From Bradyrhizobium xenonodulans (lineage in GTDB: Bacteria > Pseudomonadota > Alphaproteobacteria > Rhizobiales > Xanthobacteraceae): DNA of 64,000 nucleotides. The stretch is from assembly GCF_027594865.1 (NCBI RefSeq), contig NZ_CP089391.1, forward strand, positions 6,912,501 through 6,976,500, read 5' to 3'. A program made the position numbers and the translations under genes. Positions 40,741 through 62,988 of the stretch are shown here, piece by piece. The stretch's first letter is position 1; each line of letters opens with the position of its first letter. The notes under the pieces are model-generated. The model saw nothing but the letters and a program-made list of their open reading frames with translations, did no database searches and was not told the DNA's origin.

Positions 40741-40770
40741 CTTGATTCTCACGTGACGTCAGGTTGTAGG
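40741..40770 (+). promoter_or_regulatory. 30-bp repeated motif, copy 1 (upstream of nolA)
   Basis: The copy begins CTTGATTCTCACGTGACGTC and continues AGGTTGTAGG. The shared pattern of four copies is CTTGAWTC, two bases, ACGTRRCGTCA, then RRTTGTA or RATTGTA. It ends 17 bases before the nolA ATG, in the promoter position. Confidence 0.7.
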
Positions 40771-40787
40771 CTTGCCAATTGAACATC

Positions 40788-41498
40788 ATGATCAAAGCTA
40801 CACCACGAAGGCGTCGCTGGCGCATTGGAGAACTTGCGGAGGCTACCGGGGTAACGGTACGCACGCTGCATCACTACGAGCACACGGGTCTGCTCAGCGC
40901 GTCCGAACGCACGGACGGCGGTCATCGAATGTACGAACGCGAAAGCATTCAACGAGTGTCGCAAATTCGAGCGCTGCGCGAGCTCGGCTTCTCGCTGAAT
41001 GATATTCGCACGGCAATGGGAGGAAAGACGTCACTTACTGACCTCCTGCGCAAGCATTTGGAGCAAATTGAACTTCAGGTCACGCGCACGACCCAGTTGC
41101 GGGATCGTTTGCGTAACATGACGACGGACTCTGACACGCAAGTCAGCATGCATGAGCTGCCTGCTGCTCTGAATGCAGCTTCGCGCGCTGAAGCGCGCCC
41201 CCAGACTCCGCGATGCACGTGCGCGCTCGGCGCTGATCGAGAAGAGCGCTGGCGAAAGATCCGGGATGAGTTGCGCGATTGTGTCGATCGTGGCGAGCAC
41301 CCGTGCAGCGAGCGGGCCGCTTCCGTGGCGCTGAAGGCGCGCGCGCTCATCACAGAAATTGCGGGAACCGACCCGGCGGCCTCAACCATGCTGAAAGTTC
41401 TTGCGCGACTGAGCACGCCGCGCAACCTGGCCGGCTGGAACCACAGCCTGATGCAGTACCTTGATCTCGCAATGGCCGCATTGCAGGACAGGTACTGA
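40788..41498 (+). CDS. nolA: NolA, MerR-family nodulation regulator
   Basis: About 236 residues. The MerR helix-turn-helix is WRIGELAEATGVTVRTLHHYEHTGLL, followed by the dimerisation helix, then the NolA-specific part with SLTDLLRKHLEQIELQV, RLRNMT, ELPAALNA, CTCALGADREERWRKIRDELRDC, EHPC and the end VLARLSTPRNLAGWNHSLMQYLDLAM. Known: NolA controls genotype-specific nodulation in Bradyrhizobium and is made in several lengths from internal starts. Start choice: ATG at 40788 (MIKATPRRRRW); a TTG three codons upstream is possible. A copy of the 30-bp motif covers the promoter. Confidence 0.95.
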   Translation: MIKATPRRRRWRIGELAEATGVTVRTLHHYEHTGLLSASERTDGGHRMYERESIQRVSQIRALRELGFSLNDIRTAMGGKTSLTDLLRKHLEQIELQVTRTTQLRDRLRNMTTDSDTQVSMHELPAALNAASRAEARPQTPRCTCALGADREERWRKIRDELRDCVDRGEHPCSERAASVALKARALITEIAGTDPAASTMLKVLARLSTPRNLAGWNHSLMQYLDLAMAALQDRY

Positions 41499-42098
41499 CG
41501 CAGCCGCCGATTCAGATGCGTCCTTCATTTAAATGATTGGCGGCCGCACGTCGCGACTGCTGCGTTTCCGGCTCGGCCTCTTCCTTCCGTGCCTCCCCAT
41601 CAACCTAGTTGCTGTCGCTCCTTCCACGAGAACCGCTCGCGACCTCGAGAGATGCGTCTCTCGAACAGGCTTGAATCGGACGTAACGTCAGATTGTACGA
41701 TGGAATCTGGCTGATACCGGATTCACGCGCGGAACGCTCTCACGGGCGAGGGTTGCCCTGGCCCCGTACGCCTGGTTTTCCAAGCTGCGTTCTCGGCGTT
41801 CGACAAGCAATGAAGGATCGTTATGGCGCTACCAGAGTCTGATCAGCGCGTTTGCGCCGACCGCGAGTGCGGTTCGAGCCAGCTTTCGTCTGACCCTGTC
41901 CGAGTGCCTGCCGGAAGAAGGGATCTTTGGGGCATCCTTCGGCCCATCTTTCGCTTACCACGGCACGCGCGCGAGCACCGGGCGGAGAACGGCTCACAGC
42001 AAGGGCCGCCGGTCCGACGGCTGTCATTATTCGACGCCTCAGCAAAAATTTTTCAAGGCAAAACCAGCCACAAACTCAAGCCCGCATGGACTCTCATA
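41499..42098. other. nolA-binding protein gap with motif copy 2
   Basis: Six hundred bases with the 30-bp motif at 41670. The frame of the downstream gene is open from 41823, but the signal peptide begins only at 42099, and the upstream codons show no domain. Confidence 0.45.
41670..41699 (+). promoter_or_regulatory. 30-bp repeated motif, copy 2
   Basis: CTTGAATCGGACGTAACGTC, then AGATTGTACG. It lies 171 bases after nolA and 400 bases before the start of the binding-protein gene (124 before the upstream in-frame ATG at 41823). Confidence 0.7.
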
Positions 42099-43190
42099 AT
42101 GTCAATCCATGGCGCCATTTCTCTCGCAGCTATTCCACTCCTTGCTTTGATGTCCGTTGCATCTGCGGCCGACGTCAATATTGCTGTGGCAGGACCGATG
42201 ACTGGAAGCAATGCCGCGCTTGGAGCGCAGATGCGGGACGGTGCTGCTGCCGCCGTCGATGATCTGAATGCGTCAGGCCTCCTTCCAGGAACTAGCGTCG
42301 CCGACGACGCGTGCGATCCCAAGCAGGCGGTCGTAGTCGCCAATCGGCTTGCATCAGATCAGGTCAAGTTGGTTGTTGGCCACTTTTGTTCTTCCTCGTC
42401 GATACCGGCTTCCAACGTTTACGACGAGGCGCAACTTATTCAGATATCACCAGGATCCACCAATCCCGCGCTCACAGAGCGTGGCATCAAATCCGTGTTT
42501 CGTATCTGTGGGCGCGACGACCAGCAGGGTGTCGTGGCGGCCGAATATATCCGACGGCATTTCCCCAACACCAAGATTGCCATCCTTGACGACAGGAGCA
42601 CCGCTGGTAAAGGCATCGCCGATGTCGTTGCGGCTCATCTTCGGGAGGTTGGGATATCGGATGTGAAGCGACAAAGTTACGTGGCCGGGGAGAAGGATTA
42701 CATGGCCCTGGTTTCGAGGATGAAAGCGGACGGAATCAAACTTGCTTACATCGGCGGCTACTACAATGAGATCGGGCTGATCGTGCGTCAGGCCTCAGAA
42801 GCAGGTGCAGGTATGACCGTGATGGCCAATGATCCTCTGATGACCCACGATTTTTCGATGATCGCGGGCAAAGCCGGAAACGGAACACTGTTCACCTTTA
42901 TGCCGGATCCCACCAAGAATGCTGAGGCGGCGAGCGCCGTGGCACATCTCAAGGCCTCCAACCGGTCTTCGGAAGGTTATTCGCTTTACGCCTATGCGGC
43001 TGTGCAGGCATGGGCGAAGGCCGCAAAGCGCGCCGGCACTTTTGATTCATCGAAAGTGGCAGCTGCGCTTCGTTCGCAGCCAATTGACACGGTGATCGGT
43101 GCCGTCCGGTTCGACGCCAAGGGCGACAATTCGGCTCCCGGCTTCAGTGTCTACCGTTGGCAAGACAATATCGCCGAACAGGCCGAGTGA
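42099..43190 (+). CDS. Branched-chain amino acid-type ABC substrate-binding protein
   Basis: Periplasmic type I binding protein of 363 residues, LivJ/LivK family. Signal peptide is MSIHGAISLAAIPLLALMSVASAAD, then NIAVAGPMTGSNAALGAQMRDGA and the disulfide-bridged pair in DDACDPKQA...VVGHFC. PGSTNPALTERG, DDRSTAGKG and AYAAVQAWAKAA are typical of the family. The start was placed at the signal peptide. No permease or ATPase genes follow, so it must work with a transporter elsewhere or in sensing. Ligand unknown. Confidence 0.88.
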   Translation: MSIHGAISLAAIPLLALMSVASAADVNIAVAGPMTGSNAALGAQMRDGAAAAVDDLNASGLLPGTSVADDACDPKQAVVVANRLASDQVKLVVGHFCSSSSIPASNVYDEAQLIQISPGSTNPALTERGIKSVFRICGRDDQQGVVAAEYIRRHFPNTKIAILDDRSTAGKGIADVVAAHLREVGISDVKRQSYVAGEKDYMALVSRMKADGIKLAYIGGYYNEIGLIVRQASEAGAGMTVMANDPLMTHDFSMIAGKAGNGTLFTFMPDPTKNAEAASAVAHLKASNRSSEGYSLYAYAAVQAWAKAAKRAGTFDSSKVAAALRSQPIDTVIGAVRFDAKGDNSAPGFSVYRWQDNIAEQAE

Positions 43191-43261
43191 ATTGATCGCA
43201 ACTCATCACGGTTCGATGGGTTCATTCAGCCGCCCGATACCCTGATGCACATGTCAAGGGG

Positions 43262-43277
43262 ACGAGCGCACGCTCGT
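43262..43277 (+). terminator. Hairpin after binding-protein gene
   Basis: ACGAGCG, two bases, CGCTCGT, followed by GATTTTCCC: a seven-base perfect stem with a short T-run 70 bases after the stop codon. It fits a rho-independent terminator, though the loop is very short. Confidence 0.45.
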
Positions 43278-43399
43278 GATTTTCCCACCCCCTAACGGGA
43301 CTTCCTCGGCACTCTCACTAGTCGAGCCAGCTGGTCAACTGGTGCGGTTCTCCGCGCTTGTTGACCTGGGCTGCACCACACCAAAACGGAGGCTCTCCA

Positions 43400-44578
43400 A
43401 TGCGTAAGATATTTGTAGCTTGTAGCATGCTTGTTCTCGCTCAAGCTCAAGCCAGTGCTCAAGATTCCCACCTGCTTGCCGCGGTGGAGGAACATGCCGC
43501 GCCAGGTGAGGCTGATGATCGATCGCCCCAAGCAATGTCTGCAAGGAAGCCATTTGAAACGCCAGAGGCTCCAACCCCAGTTCCGACTGATACTGCGGAG
43601 TTTGGGTCCATTGACGCGACCGTCACGTTTCTGGCGGACGTATATGGACCCGCGCCACAAACGTCGCAGCGTCGCACTCTTCGTTACGAACAAGCCAAGA
43701 GATATATTGACGCGCATCCGGGTACGCCTGGCGTGCTGTTCATCGAAGACGTCATCGACCATCGTGGCTCGAACGGCATAGCACCGCAACACGAACTCGA
43801 GTATCGGGAGACACCGGCTCACTACTACGTGGGCGGCGGGACCTTAAACGACACAGTATTCGGGTTCGTTGACGGACCGTATCCTCCCGTGTGGACGATT
43901 GAAGCGGCACCGGTCTATTCGAGCCTCATCTATGTCGACGCACAAGGCAGCGAGACATATGTTAGCGAGAGCAAAGTCCGGCAGATGAACGATCTCGCCC
44001 CCGAGCTGCTGGACGAGATGATGCGACGCCAGGATGCGGATCGACGTTATCATGCCAGTCAAGGCTTTCTGGCAGATGAGATTCAGCGAGCCGCGGATAA
44101 CGGCGACAACTTGCGGCTGGCCCAACTCACCGAGCAGCAACAGCAAGCACAAGCTGCGCATTGTGCGGCGATGCAGATGCGTCAGCAGCGCGACGCGGAG
44201 ATCGATCGGATGTATGACCTCAACTTGAAGGCCGACGCCGGTACGATCAGCGCTCCCGAACGAGGGGAACTCGACAACTTCTCCAAGCGATCTGAGTTGA
44301 TCGAATCGACTGCACCGATTTCTGGCCGCGAGGCCGCCGGTCCTCCGCCAACCAGCTGCCCATTGTGTCGGAGCACAAACATTGCGGTGTTGCGAAGTCG
44401 ACATTTTACCGGGACATTCCAGTTTACCTCTAGCGATGATCGGTCTGTGGTCGTGGCTTATCGCCACGGCCACGCAGGTCCCATTGGCGTGCTGATCGGT
44501 GTGCCGAAGGATCTGTCAGGACCGATATTTGGTAGCTGGACCAACGCGGGAATGACCTTGCCGCCACCCCAGAAATGA
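43400..44578 (+). CDS. Secreted protein of unknown function, 392 residues
   Basis: The ATG at 43400 has GGAGG eight bases upstream and opens onto a signal peptide (MRKIFVACSMLVLAQAQASAQ). The mature part has an acidic, proline-rich linker and a globular region (GSIDATVTFLADVYGPAP, PGVLFIEDVIDHRG). A helical coiled-coil stretch of about 100 residues is rich in Gln, Asp and Arg (LDEMMRRQDADRRYHASQ ... LTEQQQQAQAAHCAAMQMRQQRDAEIDRMYDLN). A C-terminal domain has a CPLC pair. I recognise no family. It is isolated between the binding protein and the LuxR gene. Confidence 0.7.
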   Translation: MRKIFVACSMLVLAQAQASAQDSHLLAAVEEHAAPGEADDRSPQAMSARKPFETPEAPTPVPTDTAEFGSIDATVTFLADVYGPAPQTSQRRTLRYEQAKRYIDAHPGTPGVLFIEDVIDHRGSNGIAPQHELEYRETPAHYYVGGGTLNDTVFGFVDGPYPPVWTIEAAPVYSSLIYVDAQGSETYVSESKVRQMNDLAPELLDEMMRRQDADRRYHASQGFLADEIQRAADNGDNLRLAQLTEQQQQAQAAHCAAMQMRQQRDAEIDRMYDLNLKADAGTISAPERGELDNFSKRSELIESTAPISGREAAGPPPTSCPLCRSTNIAVLRSRHFTGTFQFTSSDDRSVVVAYRHGHAGPIGVLIGVPKDLSGPIFGSWTNAGMTLPPPQK

Positions 44579-44855
44579 CAGCGGTTTGGACCGCCGCCCA
44601 GCCTTGTCTGCGCAGGCACGATCAGGACTGATCCGTCACTGCCCGTGCGAACCTAAGCCCCTGCTTGCTGAAACACTCGGCGTCCGCTTAACCCTTCCTT
44701 GGCGGTAAGGAAGCTGCGAAATTGCCCGCTCACGGGCACAGTTCGCCACGGCGACGTGCGACTCGAGGCGAAGTCCACGTTTGTGGGTTGCACATCCCGG
44801 CCAGGCCGGTCGTCCCTTACCGAATGATCCGGTCGGTGCAGGGGGGGCCGGCCAT

Positions 44856-45581
44856 TCAAATGAGGTTTTGGCGAATGGCCTTTGCAATTCCGTGGGTCCG
44901 GTTCGAAGTCCCGAGCTTTCGTATCGCGTTCTTGAGATGGAAGTTGACTGTATTCTCGCTCACCTCGAGTATCTTGCCTATTTCCCAGGAGGACTTGCCC
45001 TCTCCCACCCATCGCAAGCAATCTTTTTCCCGCTCAGACAGGGCAACTTCGCAATTTGAGCCACTAGCGGAGGGCCGCGAGATCTCCGCAAGGGCAATGT
45101 GGAAGTGCCAGGCCAGTACGTTGAGATGACTCATCTGGCACTGCGGATCAGCATCGTCGAACGGGGATGCAAAGGATGCCAGAGCCACTTGGCCCAATGG
45201 TCCGTACAACGGCACGCTCATACCGTGCTTCAGACCCGCCTCTTTGGCTTCTGCGAGTACGCGCTGCTCGCTGGGTTGCAATTGACATTTTTTGGCAAGT
45301 TGATCCCACAGGAACGGCCGCGAAAGCGTTGGCGCCCGTCGTACCACCGGATCGATGACACGGTACTTGCGTTCAACGTACCGGCCGCACCAATCGGACG
45401 GGAAGGTTACCGTTACCCCGGAGGGCAGATATTCAGGCAGACCACATGCCTCCGCGAAAGTGAGGGCTCCATAAGCGACTTCACTGAAGCCTTTCTCGCT
45501 CGCACAGCTTACGAGAAGGTCGAACAAGACCTTGATTGAGTGAGTTGCCTTGGCGCATTCGATGAAATTGAAAAGATCCAT
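44856..45581 (-). CDS. LuxR-type quorum-sensing regulator (apparent solo)
   Basis: A 241-residue two-domain regulator. The N-terminal autoinducer domain keeps the AHL-pocket residues in context: DWCGRYVERKYRVIDPVV (W, Y, D, P), FLWDQL (W) and GLKHGMSVPLYGP (G). The C-terminal helix-turn-helix LSEREKDCLRWVGEGKSSWEIGKILEVSENTVNFHLKNAIRKLG is canonical. GAGG lies six bases before the ATG at 45581. No luxI-type synthase is visible within several kb on either side, so it may sense signals made elsewhere in the genome or by neighbours. It is a class known to affect nodulation in rhizobia (inference for this one). Confidence 0.92.
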   Translation of the reverse strand: MDLFNFIECAKATHSIKVLFDLLVSCASEKGFSEVAYGALTFAEACGLPEYLPSGVTVTFPSDWCGRYVERKYRVIDPVVRRAPTLSRPFLWDQLAKKCQLQPSEQRVLAEAKEAGLKHGMSVPLYGPLGQVALASFASPFDDADPQCQMSHLNVLAWHFHIALAEISRPSASGSNCEVALSEREKDCLRWVGEGKSSWEIGKILEVSENTVNFHLKNAIRKLGTSNRTHGIAKAIRQNLI

Positions 45582-47196
45582 GTAGCGCCTCACGAGGCCC
45601 CACGGCCCAAAAGTCGTACTGCGTCATTGCGCGCAGAGCTTGGTGAGGGCGGGCGTCGTTCACTCGCCCTCACCGTTGGGCTTGGCGTCCTTGCAATGCG
45701 AGCGCTCGAGCGCTGCGGCACGCAGTTCCAGAGCTGGGTAAGCTCTCCCGAAACGCGCTCGGAAGGGATAGGCGCCTCGAAGCAGCGACGAGTCGAGAAG
45801 GCCGCGGACGCGTGTCGACGGATTAAGCCCGCCACGTCTTAACTGTCGTGTGGACAGCTGCGATTCGGCTCGTCGCAGCGCGCAGGGCCGGCTATCATGA
45901 ACAGTGAGAGTGGCCGCTATCGGACTGCCGGCGAGCTCCTCGCTGAGTTGAGGATGACCGACTTCTAAAAGAGTGCGGTTGTGCAATCGCAGGCGCCATA
46001 GCGGTGGCGGAGCCTCGGGATGCCTATTTGCGTTTCCGCAACCCGGATCCACGGTAGAGCAAAGCGCTTCCGCTCTCTTTGTTCGATGCTGGTGAAGACG
46101 CCCTCGGCGAGCCGCACGAGATGGCCGTTGCCGAAGACGAGAACCTCGCACAAGAACCGCATGCCATCTCAAGCGCCAATGACCAAGCGTTTCAGCTCGT
46201 CGCACGCGGACCCGCGCGCAGTTGCAACTTTGCTTCATCGAGACGAAACGGTGCATGCGGGACTCCGGAACTTCCGAGCTGACCCTTAGGACAGCAAGTG
46301 TCGTACCAATTCCCGGCAGTCATGCATTCACGTCTGAAAGCCGTGTGTTGCGCCACTCGTCGGTCGTTCGGCGGGTCGGAGGATCGAAGCAACTCGGACA
46401 TTCGTCCGAATGCGACACTGCGCTTTGCTACAGAAGCGACATTTGCAGGTCAGCAAAGCTGCCGCCAACAACAAGATACGTAGCCTGTCTGCGGCACAAG
46501 GCAGGCGCACAAGGGGCGCCCCTGTAATCCCATGCGCGGCGAAGCCTATGGTCGAGAGCTGCTGAGCGCGGCCGACCGCCAGAGCGGGCGCCGTTTCAGT
46601 TCCAGCCAACAACCATCGAACATCCCGGTCCGGCACCAATGCTCTGCGTTGCGATCAGCGATCGCGCTCCCCCTCGATGGCACTGCATACTCAGCCGTTG
46701 GCTGGTCGACTTGCGGATCGTCGGCCAGCTCGCCTTGACTGGATGCTGGACGACACACGCGGCTGAATGGCCGCTACCTTCAAGATCTGTATGATAGACC
46801 GGTGCTCATCGCACGAGGAACGAGCTGTCGCCGACCTGCGCGGTTTCCGACAATTTGGCGTGACGCGCTGGCAATCTGAAGCGGCACTACTCCTCGATTG
46901 GGCTTATCAAGCCGCGATCGTGTGTCACGCGGCGGACCAAACGTCGCAATGGTTGCTGCCAACAGGCCCGGTTGCGTTGCACCAGATACAGAAAGTGTGA
47001 CGACGGGGATTGTGCCGCGGACCAGCATCGCGTCATCCTGGAACGTTACCTCGCGCCAAACGGGAATGCGCCATAATCCAAATGCGCGACCCGCGAGCAA
47101 CACCCTCGGCGCCGTTTACATCCGACGTACGCCGAGGGCTTTTGCGTGCACGGACAGTGACTCCGCTCGCAAACTCACATCAACTCTATTGGTTGT
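45582..47196. other. Gap of 1.6 kb
   Basis: No gene identified despite several frames of 60-200 codons; all overlap one another on both strands and lack motifs and ribosome-binding sites. No luxI-like fragment was seen. Confidence 0.45.
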
Positions 47197-47918: not shown

Positions 47919-47933
47919 CTGACGTCACGTCAG
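47919..47933. promoter_or_regulatory. Dyad A, CTGACGT-C-ACGTCAG
   Basis: Perfect 7-base arms around one central base. It lies 202 bases before the first ParA-like gene and is preceded by AAAC, as is dyad B. Confidence 0.5.
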
Positions 47934-47987
47934 ATCGACGACGACGGCCGCAGTCCGGATTCTCCGAGCTGTTAGATGGCCGCAAAC

Positions 47988-48012
47988 CTGACGTAGAGCG
48001 CTGCCACGTCAG
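47988..48012. promoter_or_regulatory. Dyad B, CTGACGT-N11-ACGTCAG
   Basis: The same two 7-base arms as dyad A but with an 11-base centre, 55 bases downstream of it and 123 bases before the ParA-like gene. Centre-to-centre spacing is about 74 bases, seven helical turns. The half-site ACGTCAG also occurs in copies 1 and 2 of the 30-bp motif. Confidence 0.5.
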
Positions 48013-48134
48013 ACCTCGCTCGCATAAATTTGCAAAACTTCGACGACCTCTTCTTTCTGCCATGTTCACGTCTAAAGCAAAGACTGTCGATCGCGCCTCG
48101 CGGTTGGCATAGCGCGTGTCTTAAAGGGAATTCG

Positions 48135-48884
48135 ATGGCGAAGCCGGTTGTGATTGTGGTGGGCGCGGACAAGGGTGGGGTCGGCAAGACGACCGTATGT
48201 CGGACGCTTCTGGACTATTTCAGCGTGAACAAGGTGCAGACCCGCGCCTTTGACACGGAGTCACCGCGAGGTACGCTGAAGCGCTTTCATTCCGACATCA
48301 CTGAGATCGTCGATATGACGACGACGGCAGACCAGATGAGGATCTTCGACACCCTGAACGCCGGGCTATCGGTCACCGTGATCGACGTCCGCGCAGGTTT
48401 GCTATCGGTCGCTCTGAACTCGTTGCGGGACATCGGGTTCCTGGATTCAGTAAAGTCTGGTCAGATCACCTTTGCCGTCTTTCATATCCTTGGCCCTTCG
48501 ATCGCCTCTCTGGACGAGATCGCCGAAACTTCCAATTTCATGAACGGCGCGAAATACTTCCTCGTCAAAAATTTCATAAATGATACCCAGTTCTTCCAAT
48601 GGGATCAGTCGACTTACGACTCGTATTTTCGCCGCATCAAGGGCGCCACCGAACTGACGATTCCGAAACTCAACGAGATGGCCTATGAGCAGGTCGAGGT
48701 CGCTTCCGTTTCGTTCGTGAATTTCGTCGCAAACAAGGGACCGCTCGATGAGATCGCGAACTACTCCTTTGTGCTGCGGGGCTATGTCCGGCACTGGCTG
48801 GCCAACGTCTGGTCCGAGTATGACCGCATCAATTTGACCGATGTGACTGGCGCCACATCAAGGCCCCGCAGCAGTGAAACGTAG
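48135..48884 (+). CDS. ParA/MinD-like P-loop ATPase, first of a pair
   Basis: A 249-residue protein with a deviant Walker A of the SIMIBI class (ADKGGVGKTT, residues 11-20), including the signature lysine at 13. It has a switch-like FDTESPRGTLKRF and a Walker B-like VTVIDVRAG. The C-terminal half (FFQWDQSTYDSYFRRIKGA... VLRGYVRHWLANVW) is not typical of plasmid ParA. AAAGGG precedes the ATG. The second gene of the pair starts 41 bases after its stop. No parB or parS-like element is evident. Role unknown: positioning, partitioning or cofactor-type ATPase are all possible. Confidence 0.8.
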   Translation: MAKPVVIVVGADKGGVGKTTVCRTLLDYFSVNKVQTRAFDTESPRGTLKRFHSDITEIVDMTTTADQMRIFDTLNAGLSVTVIDVRAGLLSVALNSLRDIGFLDSVKSGQITFAVFHILGPSIASLDEIAETSNFMNGAKYFLVKNFINDTQFFQWDQSTYDSYFRRIKGATELTIPKLNEMAYEQVEVASVSFVNFVANKGPLDEIANYSFVLRGYVRHWLANVWSEYDRINLTDVTGATSRPRSSET

Positions 48885-48925
48885 CCCTTTTGGTATGCAC
48901 CTTGGGGAATATACGAAGTCGTGTG

Positions 48926-49609
48926 ATGTCGCTGGAGATGCCGCCCACGCCGGTCTACATCATCTGCTCTCCCGGCCTGCAGGTCGGCAAGACTCTGATC
49001 GCGCGGCTCTTGAGCGAGTTCTTGTTGCTCAAGAACGGATCGGTGCTCTCCTTCGACATCAGTTTGAGGGAGCCGTCGCTGGTCGATTACCTGCCCACAA
49101 TTACCGAGACGGCAGATGTGACAGACACTTGGGGCAAAATGCAGTTGATGGACCGGCTCATCCTGGACGACGGGGTCGCGAAGGTGATTGATCTCGGTTT
49201 CCACGCATTCGACGAGTTCTTCAAAATGTGCATCGAGATTGGGTTCATGAGGGAGGCGGTACGCAACCAGGTTGCACCAATCATCCTATTTGTCGGGAGC
49301 GCCGATCGCGTCTCCTCAAGGAGCTATGAGGTGTTGCGGCACCAGATCCGGGCACCAGCGCTGATCACCGTCCATAATCAGTTCGTGCTGCGCGGCGAGT
49401 TGCCCGAAGCAATGGACCGCGCTCCAGTGCTGCGCATCTTCGCACTGCCGCAATTTTTGAAGACCTATATCGATCGCCTGACGTTTTCCTTTACGGGGTA
49501 TTTGCGCCACGAGAAGGATTCGACCACGGAGCTGCATCAATGGATTCGGCGGAATTACACCCTGTTCCGAGACCTCGAATTGAGCCTCATGCCGGCGCGC
49601 TCATTTTGA
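48926..49609 (+). CDS. P-loop-like partner protein with altered Walker A
   Basis: A 227-residue protein built like its upstream neighbour. It opens with a P-loop-like CSPGLQVGKTLIARLL (14-29), but the signature lysine and GG of the ParA motif are replaced (SPGLQVGKT). It then has FDISLREPSLVDYL and KVIDLGFHAFDEFF in the Walker B position, and an end YIDRLTFSFTGYLRHEKD...WIRRNYTLFRDL. Shared order of motifs indicates duplication and divergence. It may be the non-canonical half of a heterodimer (inference). The ATG at 48926 is the most plausible start. Confidence 0.75.
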   Translation: MSLEMPPTPVYIICSPGLQVGKTLIARLLSEFLLLKNGSVLSFDISLREPSLVDYLPTITETADVTDTWGKMQLMDRLILDDGVAKVIDLGFHAFDEFFKMCIEIGFMREAVRNQVAPIILFVGSADRVSSRSYEVLRHQIRAPALITVHNQFVLRGELPEAMDRAPVLRIFALPQFLKTYIDRLTFSFTGYLRHEKDSTTELHQWIRRNYTLFRDLELSLMPARSF

Positions 49610-49733
49610 GGCCAAGCAATGAGTCGCTGACCCGTGCAGTCGACGGGCCCTTTCCATCTTGAAATAGGAGACGTGGACCGACGAGGTCCAGCGTCCGGGT
49701 GCATTGGGCCAGGTGCCAACCGCACACATCCGA

Positions 49734-52700: not shown

Positions 52701-53349
52701 GGAAGTGGATATGCAACCGCTAGACCAGGTGAAGCGGCGTCCAACATCCGTGCTGATACGTAGGAACTTCTCGGGCGTAGGTCACAATATCTTCAATATG
52801 GGAAGCGGCGCCATTTTCGGTCAGCGCGGACGTTATTGACGAAGATCGTTGGCGGAAATGCTTGAGACGAAACGCGCGGGTCCCGGTTGTCTGAACGGAC
52901 TCTCCGCGCTGACAAGTGAAGAGTCGTCGGCGGGTGGGCCGCCCTGCGGACCAGGATCTGGTGACGACTTCTGCGCAGCGAATTGTCCGCGGAACGGCGT
53001 GAGCCCGAACACGCTCGCACGACGTTCATGGGGGCTTGAATCGCACGTGGCGTCAGATTGTACGGTTTTCGGATCAGGCGGGCGGGCCTTTGCTCGCCCT
53101 CGATCTCTTCCCGCGCAGTCACAGGGGGTTGCACATGTCTTGCAGTTTCGGGAGGACGGCGCACGGGCTGCCGGTACGGAGTGGACCTGCGCATGACTGG
53201 CGGACCGCGGCGTCACAGACGTGCTGCGGACGACAGACCCTTTGGATGATGGCGTTCCTCGGGTCACTGCGCCTCGTAGCTCCGCCGCCGTTGATCGGTC
53301 GTTTCGTGCTCGTGACCTCGGGTCCGATCGGTCGTCCGTCAGCTACAGC
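52701..53349. other. Gap upstream of transglutaminase-like gene
   Basis: Contains copy 3 of the 30-bp motif at 53035. Overlapping frames on both strands (52793-53267) lack family resemblance. Confidence 0.4.
53035..53064 (+). promoter_or_regulatory. 30-bp repeated motif, copy 3
   Basis: CTTGAATCGCACGTGGCGTC, then AGATTGTACG. It lies 286 bases before the transglutaminase-like cysteine protease, same strand. Confidence 0.7.
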
Positions 53350-53973
53350 ATGCGCAGGACGTTAATCCCGGCTGCAGTCGCAGCCGCCACAATGGTCTCT
53401 CAAACGATGACGACCGCTCGATCGGCCGATCAGAGATCGTCGGGTATGCCGGCGTTCGCGGTGTCGGCGTCTCCGCACCTCAAGCTTGACCGTCCGGCGC
53501 TCGCTCCTATGGCATACACCATGTTCTGCCTGCGTTATCAGGATGAATGCCGCCTCCGCCTCCTGTTTCGCGGCGGTCCGGTCCTCCTGACCGAGGCGCG
53601 GTGGGCAGATTTGAAAGAAGCCAACCGGACCGTGAACAGCGCCATTATCCCGGAAGCCAGTGAACCCGGTCCCGCGGTGGAAACCTGGCTCATTGATCCG
53701 GAGCGCGGTGACTGCAACGACTACGCCGTCAGCAAGCGCCACAAGCTTCTACAGCGTGGATGGCCGCCGCGAGCGCTGTTGCTCGCCGAGGTCGTGACCG
53801 CCTCGGGCCAACATCATCTGGTTCTGGTGGTACGGACTAAGAGCGGCGACCTCGTGCTGGACAATCTGACCCCGCAGATCCGATCGTGGTCGCGTGTTCC
53901 CTATCGCTGGGTTCGAGTTCAGTCGCCAGGCGCTCCGCGATATTGGCGTACTATCGCGCAGCGCGGCGAGTAA
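53350..53973 (+). CDS. Bacterial transglutaminase-like cysteine proteinase (BTLCP family), exported
   Basis: A 207-residue protein with a signal peptide-like start (MRRTLIPAAVAAATMVSQTMTTARS). The papain-like core of the BTLCP family is seen in MFCLRYQDECR...W..L...NRTVNSAI, then the triad Cys122 (GDCNDYAVSKRHKLLQRGWP), His156 (GQHHLVLVVRT) and Asp171 (LVLDNLTPQI). All three are present. Family members act in the periplasm or envelope, some cleaving adhesins (LapG-like). The target here is unknown. Confidence 0.88.
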   Translation: MRRTLIPAAVAAATMVSQTMTTARSADQRSSGMPAFAVSASPHLKLDRPALAPMAYTMFCLRYQDECRLRLLFRGGPVLLTEARWADLKEANRTVNSAIIPEASEPGPAVETWLIDPERGDCNDYAVSKRHKLLQRGWPPRALLLAEVVTASGQHHLVLVVRTKSGDLVLDNLTPQIRSWSRVPYRWVRVQSPGAPRYWRTIAQRGE

Positions 53974-54848: not shown

Positions 54849-55276
54849 CGCGATTTCCCTCGACCCTACCTCATTCCGTCCCCGCGGAACCAGACACGAT
54901 CGGGGTCTCGTTGCACTGGCATCCGCGGACGGGCTGATGTCTGTCAAGACTCGATGATCGGTCGCAAAACTGAAGCCCGGCCTTGTGGAGCTTGACGGGG
55001 CGTGTGGAAGTGCCCGCAAACGTGGTCTCGACCGTTAGCCATGACGATGGAGCCTCTTGTCTCAATGCCGGTGATTGCGAGGAGGCACATTTCGTTGTTT
55101 TGAAAGTGAAAAAAGCTCCACTCGGCCATCGAAAGGGCTTGAACCTTACGCTGCGTGAGATTGTAGGCTTGCGGTTGCGGCGAAAGCTGGCTTGGCTTGC
55201 CACCGCCGAGATTATTGAGCCGCCAGAATATCTGGCTATTCGCTTGACGTCGGCGGCTGTTGCTAAGGAAGAACCG
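54849..55276. other. Gap of 0.43 kb
   Basis: The plus frame into the next gene is open from 54983, and its last part (REIVGLRLRRKLAWLATAEIIEPPEYLAIRL) may be coding. Nothing is certain. Confidence 0.35.
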
Positions 55277-55462: not shown

Positions 55463-55590
55463 GCGGCTTGCGTTGCCCGGCTCCTGCTCGGTTTGCCCGA
55501 GGAGCCCGGTTTTCGGTGAAGTTGTCCGAATTCACAACTATTTCCGCGGTAGCAAACGTGGACTTTTGTGACAGTTTGCTTTAGCGGGCT

Positions 55591-56247
55591 TCACCGCACG
55601 CCGATATACTTCTGCGTTTGGATGCTGACGCGCCAGTTGCGTACAGTTGCCTCTCGGATGCACAGCTCCGTCGCTTTCCGGCTTTGGCTCAATGGTTGTA
55701 GCCATATCTCTGGCTTGAGCGCGTGCTCGATAGGCAGGCTCAGCAGGTTTTGGATGTCGGCAGGCTTGCCCACCGGGTGTTTGATCTCATTGGCACGCAG
55801 CAAGGTCTCACCCAGAACGGATCGCCGACCCGGCATGCCAACTTTCGGACTGACGGTCACCCATGTGTAGGGATGCGCCTGAATGGCTTGGGTGCCCGAT
55901 GTCTCCAACTGCACCGAGAATCCGGAACCGACAAGCAGCGTGGTCAGTGGCCGCAGGTCGTACAGCGCGGGCTCGCCACCCGTAATCACGACATGCCGGG
56001 CGCTGAACGCCTGCACAGCGAGCAGGACGTCCTCCGGCGACATCATGGCCCAGGTGTTGGTGTCCTCGGTCTTGATCATCATGTCGGCTATCGACACCCG
56101 CCGCTCTGAATCGACGAACCAAGTGTGCTTGGTGTCGCACCACGGACACCTGACCGGGCATGCCTGCAACCGTACGAACACGGACGGCGTGCCTGCCTTG
56201 CAGGCTTCCCCCTGGATGGTTTCAAATATTTCGTTAATCGGCAGCAC
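55591..56247 (-). CDS. queE: 7-carboxy-7-deazaguanine synthase QueE
   Basis: A 218-residue radical SAM enzyme converting 6-carboxy-tetrahydropterin to 7-carboxy-7-deazaguanine. The start INEIFETIQGEACKAGTPSVFVRLQACPVRCPWCDTKHTW carries the cluster motif C30-x3-C34-x2-C37. HVVITGGEPALYDLRPL is the GGEP SAM motif. A GTG start overlaps the queD stop by 14 bases. It is the last gene of the folE-queD-queE operon. queC, needed for the next step to preQ0, is not in the window. Confidence 0.93.
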   Translation of the reverse strand: MLPINEIFETIQGEACKAGTPSVFVRLQACPVRCPWCDTKHTWFVDSERRVSIADMMIKTEDTNTWAMMSPEDVLLAVQAFSARHVVITGGEPALYDLRPLTTLLVGSGFSVQLETSGTQAIQAHPYTWVTVSPKVGMPGRRSVLGETLLRANEIKHPVGKPADIQNLLSLPIEHALKPEIWLQPLSQSRKATELCIREATVRNWRVSIQTQKYIGVR

Positions 56248-56698
56248 GGCCTGCCTCCCGATACATGGCGCTGTTCGCGCCGTGCTCCTTCACCTCGACT
56301 GACACCAGCCGGCAACGCGGAGCAAGTCCCTTTTCCGACAACCAGTTGCTGCCGACGCGGTAGACGTGTTCGGCAAATTTTTCACAGCCAACTGCCGGCA
56401 GGACAACGACGTCTGCTAAGCCGCGCCGTGCGGCTTCGCGAAACCATTCGAGCTCGGGGTCGTCCGCGGCCACGACCGTCTTGTGGTCGAACGTACCTTC
56501 GAGGATCGCCCTCAGCTCTTTGAGGCCGCCAAAATCGACGACCCAATTCTTGTCGTCCAGGGTGTAGGCTTCGAACTCGAAACGAAACGACAACGAGTAG
56601 CCGTGCAGCAGGCGACAATGCGACTTTGCGCGCCACTGGCGGAACGTGGCAGATAGGCCGACCTCATGGCCGTATGTCTTCGTCGATAAGTATGCCAC
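56234..56698 (-). CDS. queD: QueD-like 6-carboxytetrahydropterin synthase, variant metal site
   Basis: A 154-residue protein of the PTPS/QueD fold starting at GTG two bases after the folE stop. The core is WRAKSHCRLLHGYSLSFRFEFEA, with catalytic-type Cys28 and zinc His32. The second His of the canonical LHGH is Tyr here, and the HRL zinc ligand is replaced by Phe/Arg (SATFRQW). FDHKTVV and KEHGANSAMY supply the other active-site parts. This QWR...HC..LHGY subfamily occurs in alphaproteobacteria and phages. Role: second step in deazapurine synthesis after FolE. Activity with the altered ligands is inferred from operon context. Confidence 0.85.
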   Translation of the reverse strand: MAYLSTKTYGHEVGLSATFRQWRAKSHCRLLHGYSLSFRFEFEAYTLDDKNWVVDFGGLKELRAILEGTFDHKTVVAADDPELEWFREAARRGLADVVVLPAVGCEKFAEHVYRVGSNWLSEKGLAPRCRLVSVEVKEHGANSAMYREAGRAAD

Positions 56699-56700
56699 GT

Positions 56701-57366
56701 CTAGTCCTTGATCTGCGCCATAAATTCGGTACGCATTGCCTTGCTGTCGCGGAAGGCTCCGCGCATGATGCTGGTCGTCATGATGGTTCCGGTTTCGCGA
56801 ACACCGCGCCAGACCATGCACTGATGCTGTGCCTTGAGGACGACGGCCAATCCCTTCGGCTTGAGACGGCCCTCGAGCTCGTCCGCCAGCATGAGGGTGG
56901 CTTCCTCTTGCAGGTGGGGTCGCGACAAGATCCAGTTGGCGAGGCGCACAAACTTGCTGATACCGATCAGCTTGTCACCAGGCAGAACACCGACCCATAT
57001 GCGGCCGGTGACGGGGACAAGGTGGTGGGCGCACGCAGAACGTACTGCGATAGGGCCAAGCGAGTAGACCGCATCCAGACCGCTGTCGTTCTGACACTCC
57101 GTGACCTCGGGCGCGGCCTCAAAGCGGCCGGCAAACACCTCGCGCACGTACATTTTGGCAATTCGCTTCGCGGTCCCCTGCGTATTGTGGTCGTGATTGG
57201 TATCGATGACCAGGGCATCCAGTACGGCCTGCATGTGCCGCTCGACCTCGGTCTGTATCACCTCAATGTCACCGGGCAGCAGGTGTTTTGCGATGTTGGC
57301 GTTTGGCGCAAACGACACGCCAGCTTCGAGGAGGCGTTTACGAATTGCCTGCGTTGAGCTTATCAA
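56701..57366 (-). CDS. folE: GTP cyclohydrolase I (FolE)
   Basis: About 221 residues from a TTG at 57366 (the frame is open to 57522, but those residues show no family likeness). It converts GTP to dihydroneopterin triphosphate. Typical blocks are NTQGTAKRIAKMYVREVFAGR, the zinc and catalytic site SACAHHLVPVTGRIWVGVLPGDKLIGISKFVRLANW, RPHLQEEATLMLADEL and AQHQCMVWRGVRE (zinc Cys). Operon: queD GTG lies two bases after its stop, so the enzyme is dedicated to deazapurine rather than folate supply. It should share a promoter upstream of 57366; none was recognised. Confidence 0.92.
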   Translation of the reverse strand: MISSTQAIRKRLLEAGVSFAPNANIAKHLLPGDIEVIQTEVERHMQAVLDALVIDTNHDHNTQGTAKRIAKMYVREVFAGRFEAAPEVTECQNDSGLDAVYSLGPIAVRSACAHHLVPVTGRIWVGVLPGDKLIGISKFVRLANWILSRPHLQEEATLMLADELEGRLKPKGLAVVLKAQHQCMVWRGVRETGTIMTTSIMRGAFRDSKAMRTEFMAQIKD

Positions 57367-57522
57367 AACTTCCTGCCTGACACTTTGCCCTGTTTCCGCC
57401 GAGGACTGATCTGCAGTCCGATCGCGTGATCCGCCCCCGCCATCTGATCCGTCGGCCGAAAGAACTGAGAAATGGCCGCCTGGAGAAAAGGCATTTGGGG
57501 CATAACCTGCGATTGAGGGCAC

Positions 57523-58029: not shown

Positions 58030-58278
58030 TCACGCTCTCAGATGCTTCAGCATCGAGTTGCAGGCCTGCTCGGCGTCGGCGAACGTTGTGAAGGGCGAGC
58101 CAGCGATCTTGATTGCACTACGACTTCGATGAAGCGGGCGCCATGACGCCACATAGCCGGGACGTCCGCGAAAGCCGTGGCCTGCGCGGCTCGCATAAGC
58201 GATCACGAAGGAGAAGCCATGTCCGCTTGCACTCCACACGTCCAAATGCTCGACGGCGCAGTGGAATCGCAGGATCAT
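58030..58278 (-). CDS. Small conserved Bradyrhizobium protein
   Basis: An 82-residue protein (MILRFHCAVEHLDVWSASGHGFSFVIAYAS...GFRGRPGYVASWRPLHRSRSAIKIAGSPFTTFADAEQACNSMLKHLRA). It is a recurrent short family in this genus with a beta-rich first half and the ending SPF..F..AE.AC..MLKHL. No function known. ATGs at 58284 and 58278 are both possible. Confidence 0.75.
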   Translation of the reverse strand: MILRFHCAVEHLDVWSASGHGFSFVIAYASRAGHGFRGRPGYVASWRPLHRSRSAIKIAGSPFTTFADAEQACNSMLKHLRA

Positions 58279-58397
58279 CGCCACTCGTAGCCTGCAACTT
58301 TCGGCTTAACGCTCTGTCCACCCACCTGCGCTGCCCCGGCGTAAGCTCGTCGACGGCCGCTGCTCGTCCTTGCCGATCGCCCGAACCTCTCCCCGGG

Positions 58398-59240
58398 TCA
58401 TGAGCCTCGGGCGAGAGCGGCAAGCTCAGCTTCAAGCTTGGGCTTCTGCTTGAAAATGGTGTCGATCAAGGCTTGCGCCGGCTGCTCGGCAGCATCCACG
58501 ATGGCTGCCTTCTCTGCGCGCGCCGAGGGCGCGAAGACGCGTTTAACAACGGTGGGCGAGCCCCTGAGACCGCATTTTGAAACATCCTCGACGCCAGCCT
58601 CCTGGGCGTTCCATTTTACAATTGGCGCTCGAGCGGCGCGCAAAGCATCTGCCATTGCGCCACGGCGAATCTGGTTGGTGGCCTCCATCATGGTGATGAG
58701 CGACGGCAGGCTTGCGCGCAGCACCTGGGTGCCGCCCTCGCAGCGCCGCTCCGCTTCGATTGTGCGCGCGGTGAGATCGATGGTCATGATCTTGGCAACA
58801 TAGGTTAGCTGTTGCACAGCAAGCCGCCTTGCGATACCAGGCCCGACCTGCGCGGTGTCGCCATCGATCGTCTGCTTGCCCGTGAATATGAGGTCAGGCT
58901 GGCCATAATCCTTGCCGATCTTGCGGATGGCGGTCGCGAGTGCGTAGGTGGTTGCCAGGGTGTCCGCACCCGCGAAGCAACGGTCGGTCAGCAGCACCGC
59001 GCGATCGGCGCCAAAGGTGAGGGCTTTCCGAAGAGTGTCCTCGGCCGAGGGTGGGCCCATTGTAAGGACGGTGATCTCACCACCAAACTTGTCGCGCAGA
59101 TCGAGCGCAGCTTCGAGCGCGAACAAATCGTAAGGATTGATGATGGTGGGCACACCCTGACGCATGATCGTGTTGGTCACAGGGTGCACGCGGATCTGTG
59201 CGGAATCAGGGACCTGCTTGATGCAGACGACATTGTGCAT
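58398..59240 (-). CDS. fixA: FixA, electron-transfer flavoprotein beta subunit
   Basis: A 280-residue ETF-beta-type subunit. With FixB it forms a flavoprotein that supplies low-potential electrons to nitrogenase via FixC and FixX. Visible features are the start MHNVVCIKQVPDSAQIRVHPVTNTI, INPYDLFALEAAL, TMGPPSAEDTLRKALTFGADRAVLLTD and IDGDTAQVGPGIARRL. The ATG at 59240 has GGAG at the right distance. A sigma-54 promoter lies 39-54 bases upstream. nifA is directly upstream, as in B. diazoefficiens. fixB, C and X are not downstream: after the stop come unrelated genes, so FixBCX must be elsewhere. Confidence 0.95.
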   Translation of the reverse strand: MHNVVCIKQVPDSAQIRVHPVTNTIMRQGVPTIINPYDLFALEAALDLRDKFGGEITVLTMGPPSAEDTLRKALTFGADRAVLLTDRCFAGADTLATTYALATAIRKIGKDYGQPDLIFTGKQTIDGDTAQVGPGIARRLAVQQLTYVAKIMTIDLTARTIEAERRCEGGTQVLRASLPSLITMMEATNQIRRGAMADALRAARAPIVKWNAQEAGVEDVSKCGLRGSPTVVKRVFAPSARAEKAAIVDAAEQPAQALIDTIFKQKPKLEAELAALARGS

Positions 59241-59278
59241 GTGCTTCTCCAGAGACCTTCGAAATCCACAGAAAGCAC

Positions 59279-59294
59279 AGCAAATGTCGTACCA
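59279..59294 (-). promoter_or_regulatory. Sigma-54 promoter of fixA
   Basis: Minus strand TGGTACGACATTTGCT matches TGGYAC-N5-TTGCW exactly, ten bases between GG and GC. The predicted start is about 27 bases before the ATG. No exact TGT-N10-ACA activator was found in the 130 bases upstream, so activation may rely on weak or distant NifA contact. Confidence 0.8.
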
Positions 59295-59425
59295 TTTGCG
59301 GTTTAAGGCATGAGTCGATGTAAACAACAAGTTCTGAGAGCCTGACGTGCTCCAACACGTGCAGACGCATTTCGGACATTCGTCGTCATCGCGACAGCGC
59401 TATGGTCGCACCGCCCCCACACCGC

Positions 59426-61186
59426 TCAGAAACGCTTGATCTCGATGCCGTATTTCCTCAGCGCGTAGCCAATCTGGCGGGGAGTAACGCCAAGCAGGCG
59501 CGCCGCCTTTGCCTGAACCCAACCCGACCGCTCCATGGCCGCGGTGACGCGCTCGGGATCGGTCATCTGTCCGGTACTTACGAGCGCGGCGCCGGCTGGA
59601 CCCAGCCCAGCCTGCGCGTCCCGGACAGGCGGGACAGCGCCGGCGGTCGACCGACCAGCTTCAGCGCTGCTCGGCTTCGGGGCCCCTGCGCAAGTTGGGC
59701 GCGCATGCGGCGCCACGTCTTCAGATCCCCCCTTCCACAGCATCGCCGAAAGGCACTGGCCGTGGCAGCAGGCGAAGTCGTCTCTGCAGATCGAAGGTCC
59801 TGGGGCGAGGGTCGCTGTCCGCTGCACGCAATTTTCGAGTTCACGGACGTTACCCGGAAACCCGCAATTCATCAAAACGTCCGTCGCACCTTGATCGAAT
59901 GTCAACGTGCGGCCGTTTTCGCTGTTGAAATTCCTGAGAAACTCGGCGGCGAGCAGCGGAATGTCGCTGCGCCTTTCGCGCAGGGGCGGCAGCAGCAAGG
60001 GAACCACGCTCACACGGTAATAGAGGTCAGCGCGGAACCCGTTATTTGCGACCGCTTCCTCCAGGTTTCTGTTCGTAGCTGCAATGACGCGAACGTCGAC
60101 TTTCATGGTCTGATTGCTGCCGACACGCTCGAATTCCTGCTCCTGCAGGACGCGCAGCAGCTTTGCCTGAAACGAGGGCGAGATCTCTCCGATCTCGTCC
60201 AGAAACAGCGTACCCTTATCGGCCAGCTCAAAGCGCCCCTTGCGCGAACTGAAGGCGCCGGTAAAAGCACCTTTCTCATGGCCGAACAATTCGGACTCCA
60301 GAACGGTCTCGGGGAGCGCCGCACAGTTGAGCTTGATGAACGGCCGCTTGGAGCGCGCCGAGAGGGCGTGAATAGCCTTGGCCACCAGCTCCTTCCCGGT
60401 ACCGGATTCGCCGCGCAGCAGAACCGTGCTATTCGATTTGGCAACCACCGCGATCTTGTCGAGCAGCGCGCGCAGCGCCGGACTATCGCCAATGATGCCT
60501 TCCACATTGACCTTCTTGCGCTCGCGAGCGGGTTGTTGGATTTCGGCCAATTGCTTTTGCAATCGATCCTTTTCCGCCATCAGTCGCTCGCGGTCTGTCG
60601 CAAAGAGCCGATGCAGCTTCACGGTCTGCCCGACCAGATTGGCGATCATGGTGAGAAGTCTGACGTCGTATTCGAGCCGTATGCTTGAGCTGTCGTCCAG
60701 AACACGGTCGATGGTCAGCGCGCCAACTGCTTTCGCGTCGATCCGAATGGGAACGCCGATGAACGACACCCGTGCGTTATCGCTGGCACCGAGCACCTCG
60801 AGGTCGGCCGTCGTGAACGCCGAATGGACTGCGATGTCCTCGGCCACGAGCGGCATGTCCGTCGCCACGATCTGATCAATCGCTTTCGGTGGGAGCCGCG
60901 TCCGGTACCGCTCGTCGCTGCCTTCGGTCCAGCCGACGCCGACCGTAATGTCTGGCTGGCCATCATGGTCGAAAAGCGAGACGATGCCGTGCCGCATCTG
61001 AACAAACGAATGCAGAATATCCACGACGTTGGCCAACGTGAGCTCGAGCCGGCAGGGGGCGGCGAGTATCTTCGAGATTTCGAAGATCCCGACAATGGCG
61101 CTTTCGTGCAGCGTCACAATGGGAACAGTTTGGCTCGTCTCCGACACTGAGTCAGGCCTTTCGTGTGCGGAAGCGATGTTCAACAT
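59426..61186 (-). CDS. nifA: NifA, sigma-54-dependent activator of nitrogen fixation
   Basis: A 586-residue enhancer-binding protein. It has an N-terminal GAF domain (about 30-190) and an AAA+ domain with GESGTGKE (259-266), GAFTGA (306-311) and TLFLDEIGE Walker B. The oxygen-responsive cysteine set follows in the linker (MNCGFPGNVRELENC, then CRDDFACCHGQC), then the C-terminal helix-turn-helix AAMERSGWVQAKAARLLGVTPRQIGYALRKYGIEIKRF. The cysteines indicate the redox-sensitive rhizobial class. ATG at 61186 with GGAG nine bases upstream. fixR, its usual partner, is not upstream. Confidence 0.97.
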   Translation of the reverse strand: MLNIASAHERPDSVSETSQTVPIVTLHESAIVGIFEISKILAAPCRLELTLANVVDILHSFVQMRHGIVSLFDHDGQPDITVGVGWTEGSDERYRTRLPPKAIDQIVATDMPLVAEDIAVHSAFTTADLEVLGASDNARVSFIGVPIRIDAKAVGALTIDRVLDDSSSIRLEYDVRLLTMIANLVGQTVKLHRLFATDRERLMAEKDRLQKQLAEIQQPARERKKVNVEGIIGDSPALRALLDKIAVVAKSNSTVLLRGESGTGKELVAKAIHALSARSKRPFIKLNCAALPETVLESELFGHEKGAFTGAFSSRKGRFELADKGTLFLDEIGEISPSFQAKLLRVLQEQEFERVGSNQTMKVDVRVIAATNRNLEEAVANNGFRADLYYRVSVVPLLLPPLRERRSDIPLLAAEFLRNFNSENGRTLTFDQGATDVLMNCGFPGNVRELENCVQRTATLAPGPSICRDDFACCHGQCLSAMLWKGGSEDVAPHARPTCAGAPKPSSAEAGRSTAGAVPPVRDAQAGLGPAGAALVSTGQMTDPERVTAAMERSGWVQAKAARLLGVTPRQIGYALRKYGIEIKRF

Positions 61187-62988
61187 GACGACGTCTCCGT
61201 TATTTTCAGCATCCTCCCTACCATCTTGTTTGGATTTTGCGAGTTTGATGCTGCGCCTGATGCTCGTGCGCAATTCAGGTCGCCAGCTAGACATAGCGCT
61301 CTTTCATGGCACTGCTATAAACGCATCGTGGTCCTAACGTCCTTGTTATGAGGTCGTCCTGTGTTCACAGTGCACGGCACGAGTTCCATGGACCTGCATC
61401 AACGATTTTCCGACTCCATCTGTAGCCGACCGCGAGCCGTCGGCAACCTTTGAATAACAACTTGGCGCATGCGTCATCTTTTTCCCGATCAGAATGGGAT
61501 TTTTTCCCGGCCAAACATTGGAATGCGATGCTAGCGGTCTCTTCTGGTGCAGTCCCACGCGAGGAGTCGCCGATGTTTTGCAGGGATGCTCATTCCTCAC
61601 GTGCGACAAAACGCTGCTCTCGCATGCAATCGCAATTGCCCGGAATCTGACGCGGTGTGTTGGTGCGTGCGATTTCGCTCGTAAGACTCGGTAACCTCGC
61701 TTTGCGAGGGGCTAATCGCTGCTTGCAAAGGCCGGCGAACGCGCAAACGCCGGCGATCACAGTATCGATGTCGGCGTGGCTCTTAGCTGACGAACAACAA
61801 CATGCGGTTCACATCGGGTCCCCGATTCAAGTGGAATAGGCCGAGCGCAGTCTTGACTGAACTCGTCAACGGCGAGCTTGGTGACGTCCGGCGACGTCGC
61901 AGGAATGCCGCCACTGTCGATCGATGCATGCGATTGCGCTCGCGAGCCGTTCATCGACGTCTAGGGCGCCGAATAATAGCTGCCGATATCTGCTGCGATT
62001 GACCTCGATCTTGACACTGGTTGCAGGGTCGCACCTGAATCGCTCACGTTGAAGCGGCGGATGAGTGCAGCGAGCCATCGGCCTGCCGGCTGGCCGAGAC
62101 GGCGCTCCGCCGAGGAGCTCGGGATTGTGCGAGGCCGCGGCCGGAACCAGCGTCTTGCGTCCTCGCTCAGGATGTTACCTTCGAAGAGCGTGAGGCCGAT
62201 GGGCGCCAGTCGTCGGCTCCGGCCGACCGAATTTCCCACGTTCTTCGCCAAGATCGAGGCACAAACACACACCTTATTCTCATAACGCGATCTTTGGGCG
62301 CGTTGCAGGATCTGGGCCACTGCGATCAACAACGTAAGACTTCGCAGCCAAATGTCGTCTCGCGAAGGGGCGCGGACTTAGGACATGGGCTGTGTTTGCT
62401 TTCTGACATAGGGCAGAATTCCAACAGTCGATTGCCCGAGAGCCGTCCGGCGCTCGCCCCGGCGACCGATCTTGCCGTGATAGCTCCCGAACCGCCCTTG
62501 ATTCGCCGCACGCGCTCTCAAAGCCCGAGCTAGGCCCAACGAACGTTCAGCCACAAGCTTGCGCGAATTCGTGCGACGAGCACGTCGACAGGACTTGATT
62601 CGCACGTAGCGTCAAATTGTAGCTTCGGCAAACAGGCCGCCACGGCCTTCAGAACAGCCGGCGCAGGTCAGTGCCTCGCCGGGGAGCATCGCATGACGCT
62701 GCCAATGTACCGACTTTCAAACCAAGGCTTGCGGCTCGATCGTGCTGGGACTGCAAGGGCTGGCTTAGCGACCAGACTCGGCTGCGCGCAGTCGGCTGAG
62801 ATTGACAGAGCGATCGCAACCCCGCGAACAAACAACCAGATCGCTGCATCTTAACCGCCGCCTTTTGGCTCGTGCACCGCCAACGAGCCAGGCGACGCCA
62901 CGTCAGCTGTGCGAAACGGATTTCTCGCTAGACCGTCAAGCACACTCTTAATGGCGACTGCCGTCTGCGTATCAAGAGGGACAAGAAT
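61187..62988. other. 1.8-kb gap between nifA and aminotransferase
   Basis: No gene recognised on either strand, only frames of up to about 120 codons without motif. It must contain the promoter of nifA, for which no clear -24/-12 match was found. Copy 4 of the 30-bp motif is at 62594. Confidence 0.45.
62594..62623 (+). promoter_or_regulatory. 30-bp repeated motif, copy 4
   Basis: CTTGATTCGCACGTAGCGTC, then AAATTGTAGC. It lies 366 bases before the aminotransferase gene, same strand. Confidence 0.65.

Follow-up and report, generated by a model that had tools for sequence, protein, structure and literature searches.

A putative NolA box with the layout of a MerR-type promoter recurs before nolA and other symbiosis-region genes of Bradyrhizobium

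The stretch of DNA analyzed here (the window) comprises 64,000 nucleotides of the Bradyrhizobium xenonodulans genome (contig NZ_CP089391.1, positions 6,912,501 to 6,976,500) and includes nolA, which encodes a MerR-family regulator, together with several copies of a 30-bp element here termed the putative NolA box. An earlier reading of the sequence (the original prediction) had reported four copies of this element, with 22 to 27 of 30 positions alike. The four copies were located at 40741, 41670, 53035 and 62594, all on the plus strand, as had been described, and a recount gave 24 to 27 identical bases out of 30 in pairwise comparisons, with 21 of the 30 positions invariant. No match with up to three mismatches occurred in 100 dinucleotide shuffles. 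A weight matrix built from 39 sites scored six sites of the window at 35.6 to 48.5, while the top score in 60 simulated 64-kb sequences was 14.7. The two copies beyond the first four are at 14293 to 14266 on the minus strand (three mismatches) and at 55138 to 55165 on the plus strand, the latter added by the matrix.

The copy before nolA (40741 to 40772, plus strand; matrix score, 44.0) was read as a -35 hexamer TTGATT at 40742 to 40747, a dyad-bearing 19-bp spacer at 40748 to 40766 and a -10 hexamer TAGGCT at 40767 to 40772. The nolA gene (40788 to 41498, plus strand; PF13411, PF00376, and PF09278) begins with an ATG at 40788, 19 bp downstream of the 28-bp site. The other three copies had been placed about 290 to 400 bp before their genes, which agrees with the distances measured. 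The box at 41670 to 41701 (plus strand; -10 TACGAT; matrix score, 48.0) lies 401 bp before the likely start of a gene for an ATP-binding cassette (ABC) transporter substrate-binding protein (42099 to 43190, plus strand; PF13458), the start codon being our choice; the distance is 125 bp if the in-frame ATG at 41823 is used instead. The box at 53035 to 53066 (plus strand; -10 TACGGT; matrix score, 48.5) precedes a gene for a transglutaminase-like cysteine protease (53221 to 53973, plus strand; PF06035, peptidase C93) whose true start is probably the ATG at 53350, about 287 bp away. The box at 62594 to 62625 (plus strand; -10 TAGCTT; matrix score, 46.3) is 367 bp from the ATG of a HisC-like aminotransferase gene (62989 to 64000, plus strand, continuing beyond the window end; PF00155), which is followed in the genome, past the window end, by two LLM-like oxidoreductase open reading frames (ORFs). 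Of the two weaker boxes, that at 14262 to 14293 (minus strand; -10 TAGGCT; matrix score, 38.6) precedes a prolyl-oligopeptidase-family gene (12083 to 14180, minus strand, start approximate; PF00326 and PF02897), and that at 55138 to 55169 (plus strand; -10 TAGGCT; matrix score, 35.6) has no evident plus-strand gene behind it.

The anatomy of the element was determined from an alignment of 144 sites, which formed 93 groups after similar flanks were collapsed. Loci from a scan of named genomes were excluded because their search pattern fixed T at position 32, and nolA sites are over-represented because nolA loci were retrieved deliberately. The consensus was C-TTGAAT-C-NN-ACGT-N-RCGT-CA-RRTTG-TAnnnT, with the -35 hexamer TTGAAT at positions 2 to 7 and a complete TAnnnT at positions 27 to 32 in 126 of the 144 sites (75 of the 93 collapsed groups). 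Within this -10 hexamer, positions 27, 28 and 32 were conserved, position 30 was mainly G, and positions 29 and 31 were loose; T at position 32 was found in 88% of sites (81% collapsed), compared with 16% T in the flank. Dyad symmetry was maximal at position 15 (0.56; next highest, 0.43). From the positions of TTGAAT and TAnnnT and the symmetry peak, it follows that the -35 and -10 hexamers are 19 bp apart and that the dyad center lies 7 bp behind the -35. MerR-family promoters have spacers of 19 to 20 bp (PMC9909328), and 21-bp MerR-family sites have their dyad center 7 bp from the -35 (PMC5045206). In spacer length, in the placing of the dyad and in its presence at the regulator's own promoter, the element thus agrees with this type. 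Judged by its sequence, the element itself is a MerR-type promoter, a point missed by the original prediction. A promoter predicted in the same DNA stretch before nolA, TTGAAT-N16-TTGTAGGCT (PMC5596368), was interpreted as an ordinary sigma-70 promoter whose spacer is 16 bp long, whereas we place the -10 at TAGGCT behind a 19-bp spacer and find that the arrangement recurs before nodD2 and other genes. The variability of position 29 and the conservation of positions 27, 28 and 32 led us to reject the -10 hexamer TTGTAG that goes with the 16-bp spacer.

The N-terminal part of NolA is a TipAL/Mta/SkgA-type MerR domain. A single-sequence search of the PDB gave the DNA-bound domain of TipAL (2vz4) as the best match (E value of 1.1e-14), and a profile search gave 3hh0 first and 2vz4 second; NolA has also been listed beside TipA as a multidrug-type MerR regulator (PMC9909328). 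A structural model of NolA (mean predicted local distance difference test score of 70.8; predicted template modeling score of 0.40) was informative just for the MerR fold, residues 7 to 121, which matched MtaN, TipAL, SkgA, and SoxR equally well. No TipAS structure was among the matches listed for the model, and the Pfam domain search found no TipAS match in the NolA of the window.

The operators of the TipA class (tipA, mta, and skgA; PMC7762955) were compared with the nolA copy and were alike at 18, 16 and 17 of 26 positions, respectively, in ungapped alignment. None of 5,000 shuffles reached these values, and when the leading TTG was kept, 0, 12 and 0 did so. The shared features are the TTG of the -35, a core of the ACGT-N-RCGT type in the same register, the 19-bp spacer and an autoregulated regulator gene. 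The box differs in its arms, TTGAATC and GATTGTA, where the operators have TTGACCC and similar sequences, and, unlike the sites of the TipA class, it occurs at many promoters per genome and is restricted to nolA-bearing genomes. The operator class is already known, and the putative regulon-wide NolA box adds a new member to it.

The distribution of the element followed that of nolA. With up to two mismatches, it was found in 140 of 265 Bradyrhizobium genomes (the reversed control gave one match, in G013), and nolA (E value of ≤1e-30) was found in 137. All 137 nolA-bearing genomes contained the element, with 2 to 25 sites each (mean, 10.9); 125 of the 128 genomes without nolA lacked it, leaving three with the element alone (G037, G079, and G133) and none with nolA alone. 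The nodA gene was above the cut-off in 139 genomes, namely the 137 with nolA plus G037 and G133, which have one site each (two and three at ≤3 mismatches). Outside the genus, within an order-level set of 397 genomes, the element was found once in 382 genomes, as a single match in G622 directly upstream of the gene for a 48%-identical NolA homolog (230 residues; TipAS match under the cut-off, 22.5 versus 23.8 bits). A search for nolA in the 397 genomes (E value of ≤1e-20) recovered exactly the four element-bearing genomes, and in the scan of named genomes all 80 loci among the matches listed were from Bradyrhizobium. At the 30 best nolA loci, the element stood 48 to 50 bp upstream of the same codons and was followed by TAGGCT in every case, and it was present also at the divergent nolA genes of G046, G110 and G114 and at both copies in G166.

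The B. xenonodulans genome (one contig, 8.28 Mb) has nine places with up to three mismatches, eight plus and one minus, all between 6.74 and 7.30 Mb; the reversed pattern gave no match at this threshold. The genome-wide search proposed in the original prediction thus places all copies in one 0.56-Mb region, and across genomes the same gene families recur behind the sites. Downstream genes were clustered for 271 distinct sites, this time including the named-genome scan loci; the single-linkage clusters are approximate, several being unrecognized or representing one set of genes in alternate frames, and just recognizable proteins are named. These were the ABC binding protein (61 sites), nolA (47), nodD2 (27), small cysteine-rich proteins (12), TrpD and XopAD-like proteins (9 each), HisC-like aminotransferase (8), glycosyltransferase (6), acyl-CoA ligase (4), and OmpR-type regulator, secreted protein and C93 protease (3 each).

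Several further observations concern single sites. At 6739604 of the B. xenonodulans contig (locus L048, position 9604), a site is followed by a stretch resembling the start of nolA and then by a glycosyltransferase gene; duplication of the nolA promoter is a possible origin of this site. At L228:5951-7732, a site is followed by an ORF that partly matches the XopAD/skwp type III effector family, and in G193 a site (L082:3820) is upstream of decayed nodD2 fragments (pieces of 36 to 40% identity). Downstream of the box at 55138 to 55169, whose -10 is intact, the window has minus-strand genes of the radical SAM, PTPS, and GTP cyclohydrolase I families (55594 to 57522). The half-site ACGTCAG had also been noted in dyads before a ParA-like pair, and it was indeed seen there: CTGACGTCACGTCAG forms a perfect 15-bp dyad at 47919 to 47933 (matrix score, just 13.4), and CTGACGT-N11-ACGTCAG at 47988 to 48012 is a second dyad with the same half-sites. 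These dyads precede a weak ParA-like ORF pair (48030 to 49609), have no NolA-type -35 or -10, and are perhaps the operator of another regulator.

One recurrent downstream gene, nodD2, has a published link to NolA. NolA has been reported to activate itself and NodD2 in USDA110 (PMC9927474), and in strain SFJ4-24 nolA and nodD2 fall together (PMC4070659). In genome G027, which was taken as USDA110, a site was found 338 bp before the nodD adjoining nolA (nodD2 by position), and the other nodD (nodD1) had no site upstream. An examination of 250 bp before nodD2 reported, contrary to earlier literature, that a NolA site was absent and that USDA110 had no promoter there (PMC5596368); the distance of 338 bp would explain why that search missed the box. 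For B. xenonodulans, nodD2 was rejected as a target, as tblastn found no nodD2 adjoining nolA; the NodD at 38502 in the window is nearer to nodD1 of G027 than to its other nodD (72% versus 62% identity). A second NodD-like gene of the window (7184 to 8119), 64% identical to the NodD at 38502, has no NolA-type site upstream.

Expression data were available for B. guangxiense CCBAU 53363, in which deletion of nolA changed 11 genes, 10 of them downward, the four genes named being nopP, virK, X268_RS37710, and X268_RS35990 (PMC9927474). X268_RS37710 encodes an LLM oxidoreductase and begins 37 bp after the HisC-like gene X268_RS37715; a site was found 318 bp upstream of X268_RS37715 and hence of the pair. 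The chance of a given gene lying within 2.5 kb of one of the six sites in that genome is about 0.2%. The copy at 62594 in the window precedes the orthologous genes, the aminotransferase being 61% and the oxidoreductase 58% identical to those of B. guangxiense.

Taken together, these observations make it very probable that the 30-bp element is a NolA box through which NolA switches its own gene and roughly ten symbiosis-region promoters. Each copy would be a sigma-70-type promoter (TTGAAT, 19-bp spacer, TAnnnT) whose over-long spacer contains the NolA operator. A NolA dimer would bind the dyad between the -35 and -10, and activated NolA, by analogy with MerR-family activators, would distort the DNA and bring the misaligned hexamers into a form usable by RNA polymerase; that NolA binds there, that it activates by distortion and that an inducer acts on it are inferred. 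Chitin and bradyoxetin (PMC4070659) and genistein (PMC9909328) are reported inducers of nolA. With a NolA operator in its own promoter, nolA would be autoregulated, and nodD2 would be a target where present. The full set of about ten promoters per genome would include those of the ABC binding protein, HisC-LLM, C93 protease, N-monooxygenase, glycosyltransferase, small secreted proteins, and others. Most of these putative NolA-box promoters were previously unlinked to NolA in the literature searched. In that literature, on NolA boxes, binding, and regulon, on palindromes near nolA and on Bradyrhizobium promoter motifs, the element is not described as a NolA site, although the older papers cited for a putative nodD2 NolA site were not covered and parts may be in print; a genome-wide study of start sites reported, in its accessible portion, just RpoD- and RpoN-like motifs (PMC4842269).

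Several observations weigh against this interpretation. Of the four named B. guangxiense genes, X268_RS37710 alone was found behind a site: virK is NolA-dependent and has none, nopP showed no NolA binding in the authors' electrophoretic mobility shift assay (PMC9927474), and X268_RS35990 was absent from the gene table examined. For virK and nopP, these results argue for indirect NolA control. The pattern that gave the six sites in that genome was relaxed after sister-strain sites had been inspected, and the -10 T is missing from the sites at nolA and at the HisC-LLM pair. A microarray of USDA110 reported nolA up 1.7-fold and nodD2 unchanged (PMC4070659). The nolA gene of G247 has no site upstream, and G079 has five sites with no nolA, nodA or nodD2 found in the assembly, these sites being possible relics. 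Many sites are 300 to 400 bp from their gene, and for some no gene is evident downstream. Co-occurrence within the genus could also reflect joint inheritance of the symbiosis island.

The element might instead be bound by NodW or NwsB, which are response regulators of the FixJ type, with nolA and the other genes as targets and NolA not the binder. In USDA110, some genes lacking both nod and tts boxes, nodD1 among them, are activated by NodW and NwsB (PMC5793154). The FixJ site consensus resembles the ACGTA core seen in some copies, and a FixJ-like regulator gene lies behind one site in G193. However, the NodW-dependent nodD1 lacks a site in G027 while nodD2 has one, the 27-bp dyad between -35 and -10 with its 19-bp spacer has MerR geometry, and the G622 site stands before a nolA homolog. 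We consider binding by NodW or NwsB improbable.

As multi-copy promoter elements of symbiosis regions, the NodD-bound nod box and the TtsI-bound tts box are both comparable to the putative NolA box. The nod box differs in sequence, being built of ATC-N9-GAT units. According to another idea, TtsI, one of the regulators named alongside NolA in the original prediction, binds the element as a variant tts box. This idea draws on the partial letter match CGTCAGnTTnT common to the element and the tts consensus (PMC5748692), but the sites lack the second half of the tts box (TCG..AGCT), TtsI and NolA belong to different regulator families, and the G622 site has GTGAG instead of GTCAG. In the B. xenonodulans genome, none of eight tts-like matches (≤2 mismatches) fell on a site. 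Among the suggested regulators, the evidence thus favors NolA and fits TtsI poorly, and a tts variant seems highly improbable. Just as improbable is the second of the two readings offered in the original prediction, namely that a short repeat, mobile or duplicated, has spread through the symbiosis island without a regulatory role. The confinement of the copies to the 0.56-Mb region would suit such a repeat, as would sites without a gene, namely that at 55138 and, by our own reading of an incomplete gene table, three of the six in the B. guangxiense plasmid. Against it, the flanks differ and show no homology beyond the motif, as reflected in the 93 dissimilar-flank groups among 144 sites, the recurrence of gene families behind the sites extends over many genomes, and invariant positions are interspersed with free ones in the manner of a binding site. 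The first reading, a regulon motif, is the one supported.

Beyond the putative NolA box as such, the boxes might wire a self-contained signaling circuit of the symbiosis island, in which enzymes would make a small molecule, the ABC binding protein would take it up or sense it, and NolA with NodD2 would respond by shutting down nodulation genes, but we regard this as unlikely. Its candidate enzymes could be the HisC-like aminotransferase and LLM oxidoreductases, the N-monooxygenase, the acyl-CoA ligase, the extra trpD product and the radical SAM protein. If such a circuit exists, the box set would point to the missing synthase genes of a nodulation quorum signal.

NolA has long been known as a nodulation regulator, its site on the DNA has been unsettled, and a defined box would make the link between NolA and nodD2 directly testable. 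It would also predict, from sequence, roughly ten promoters per genome in any nolA-bearing Bradyrhizobium, so that individual genes could be identified behind the host-range effects linked to nolA.

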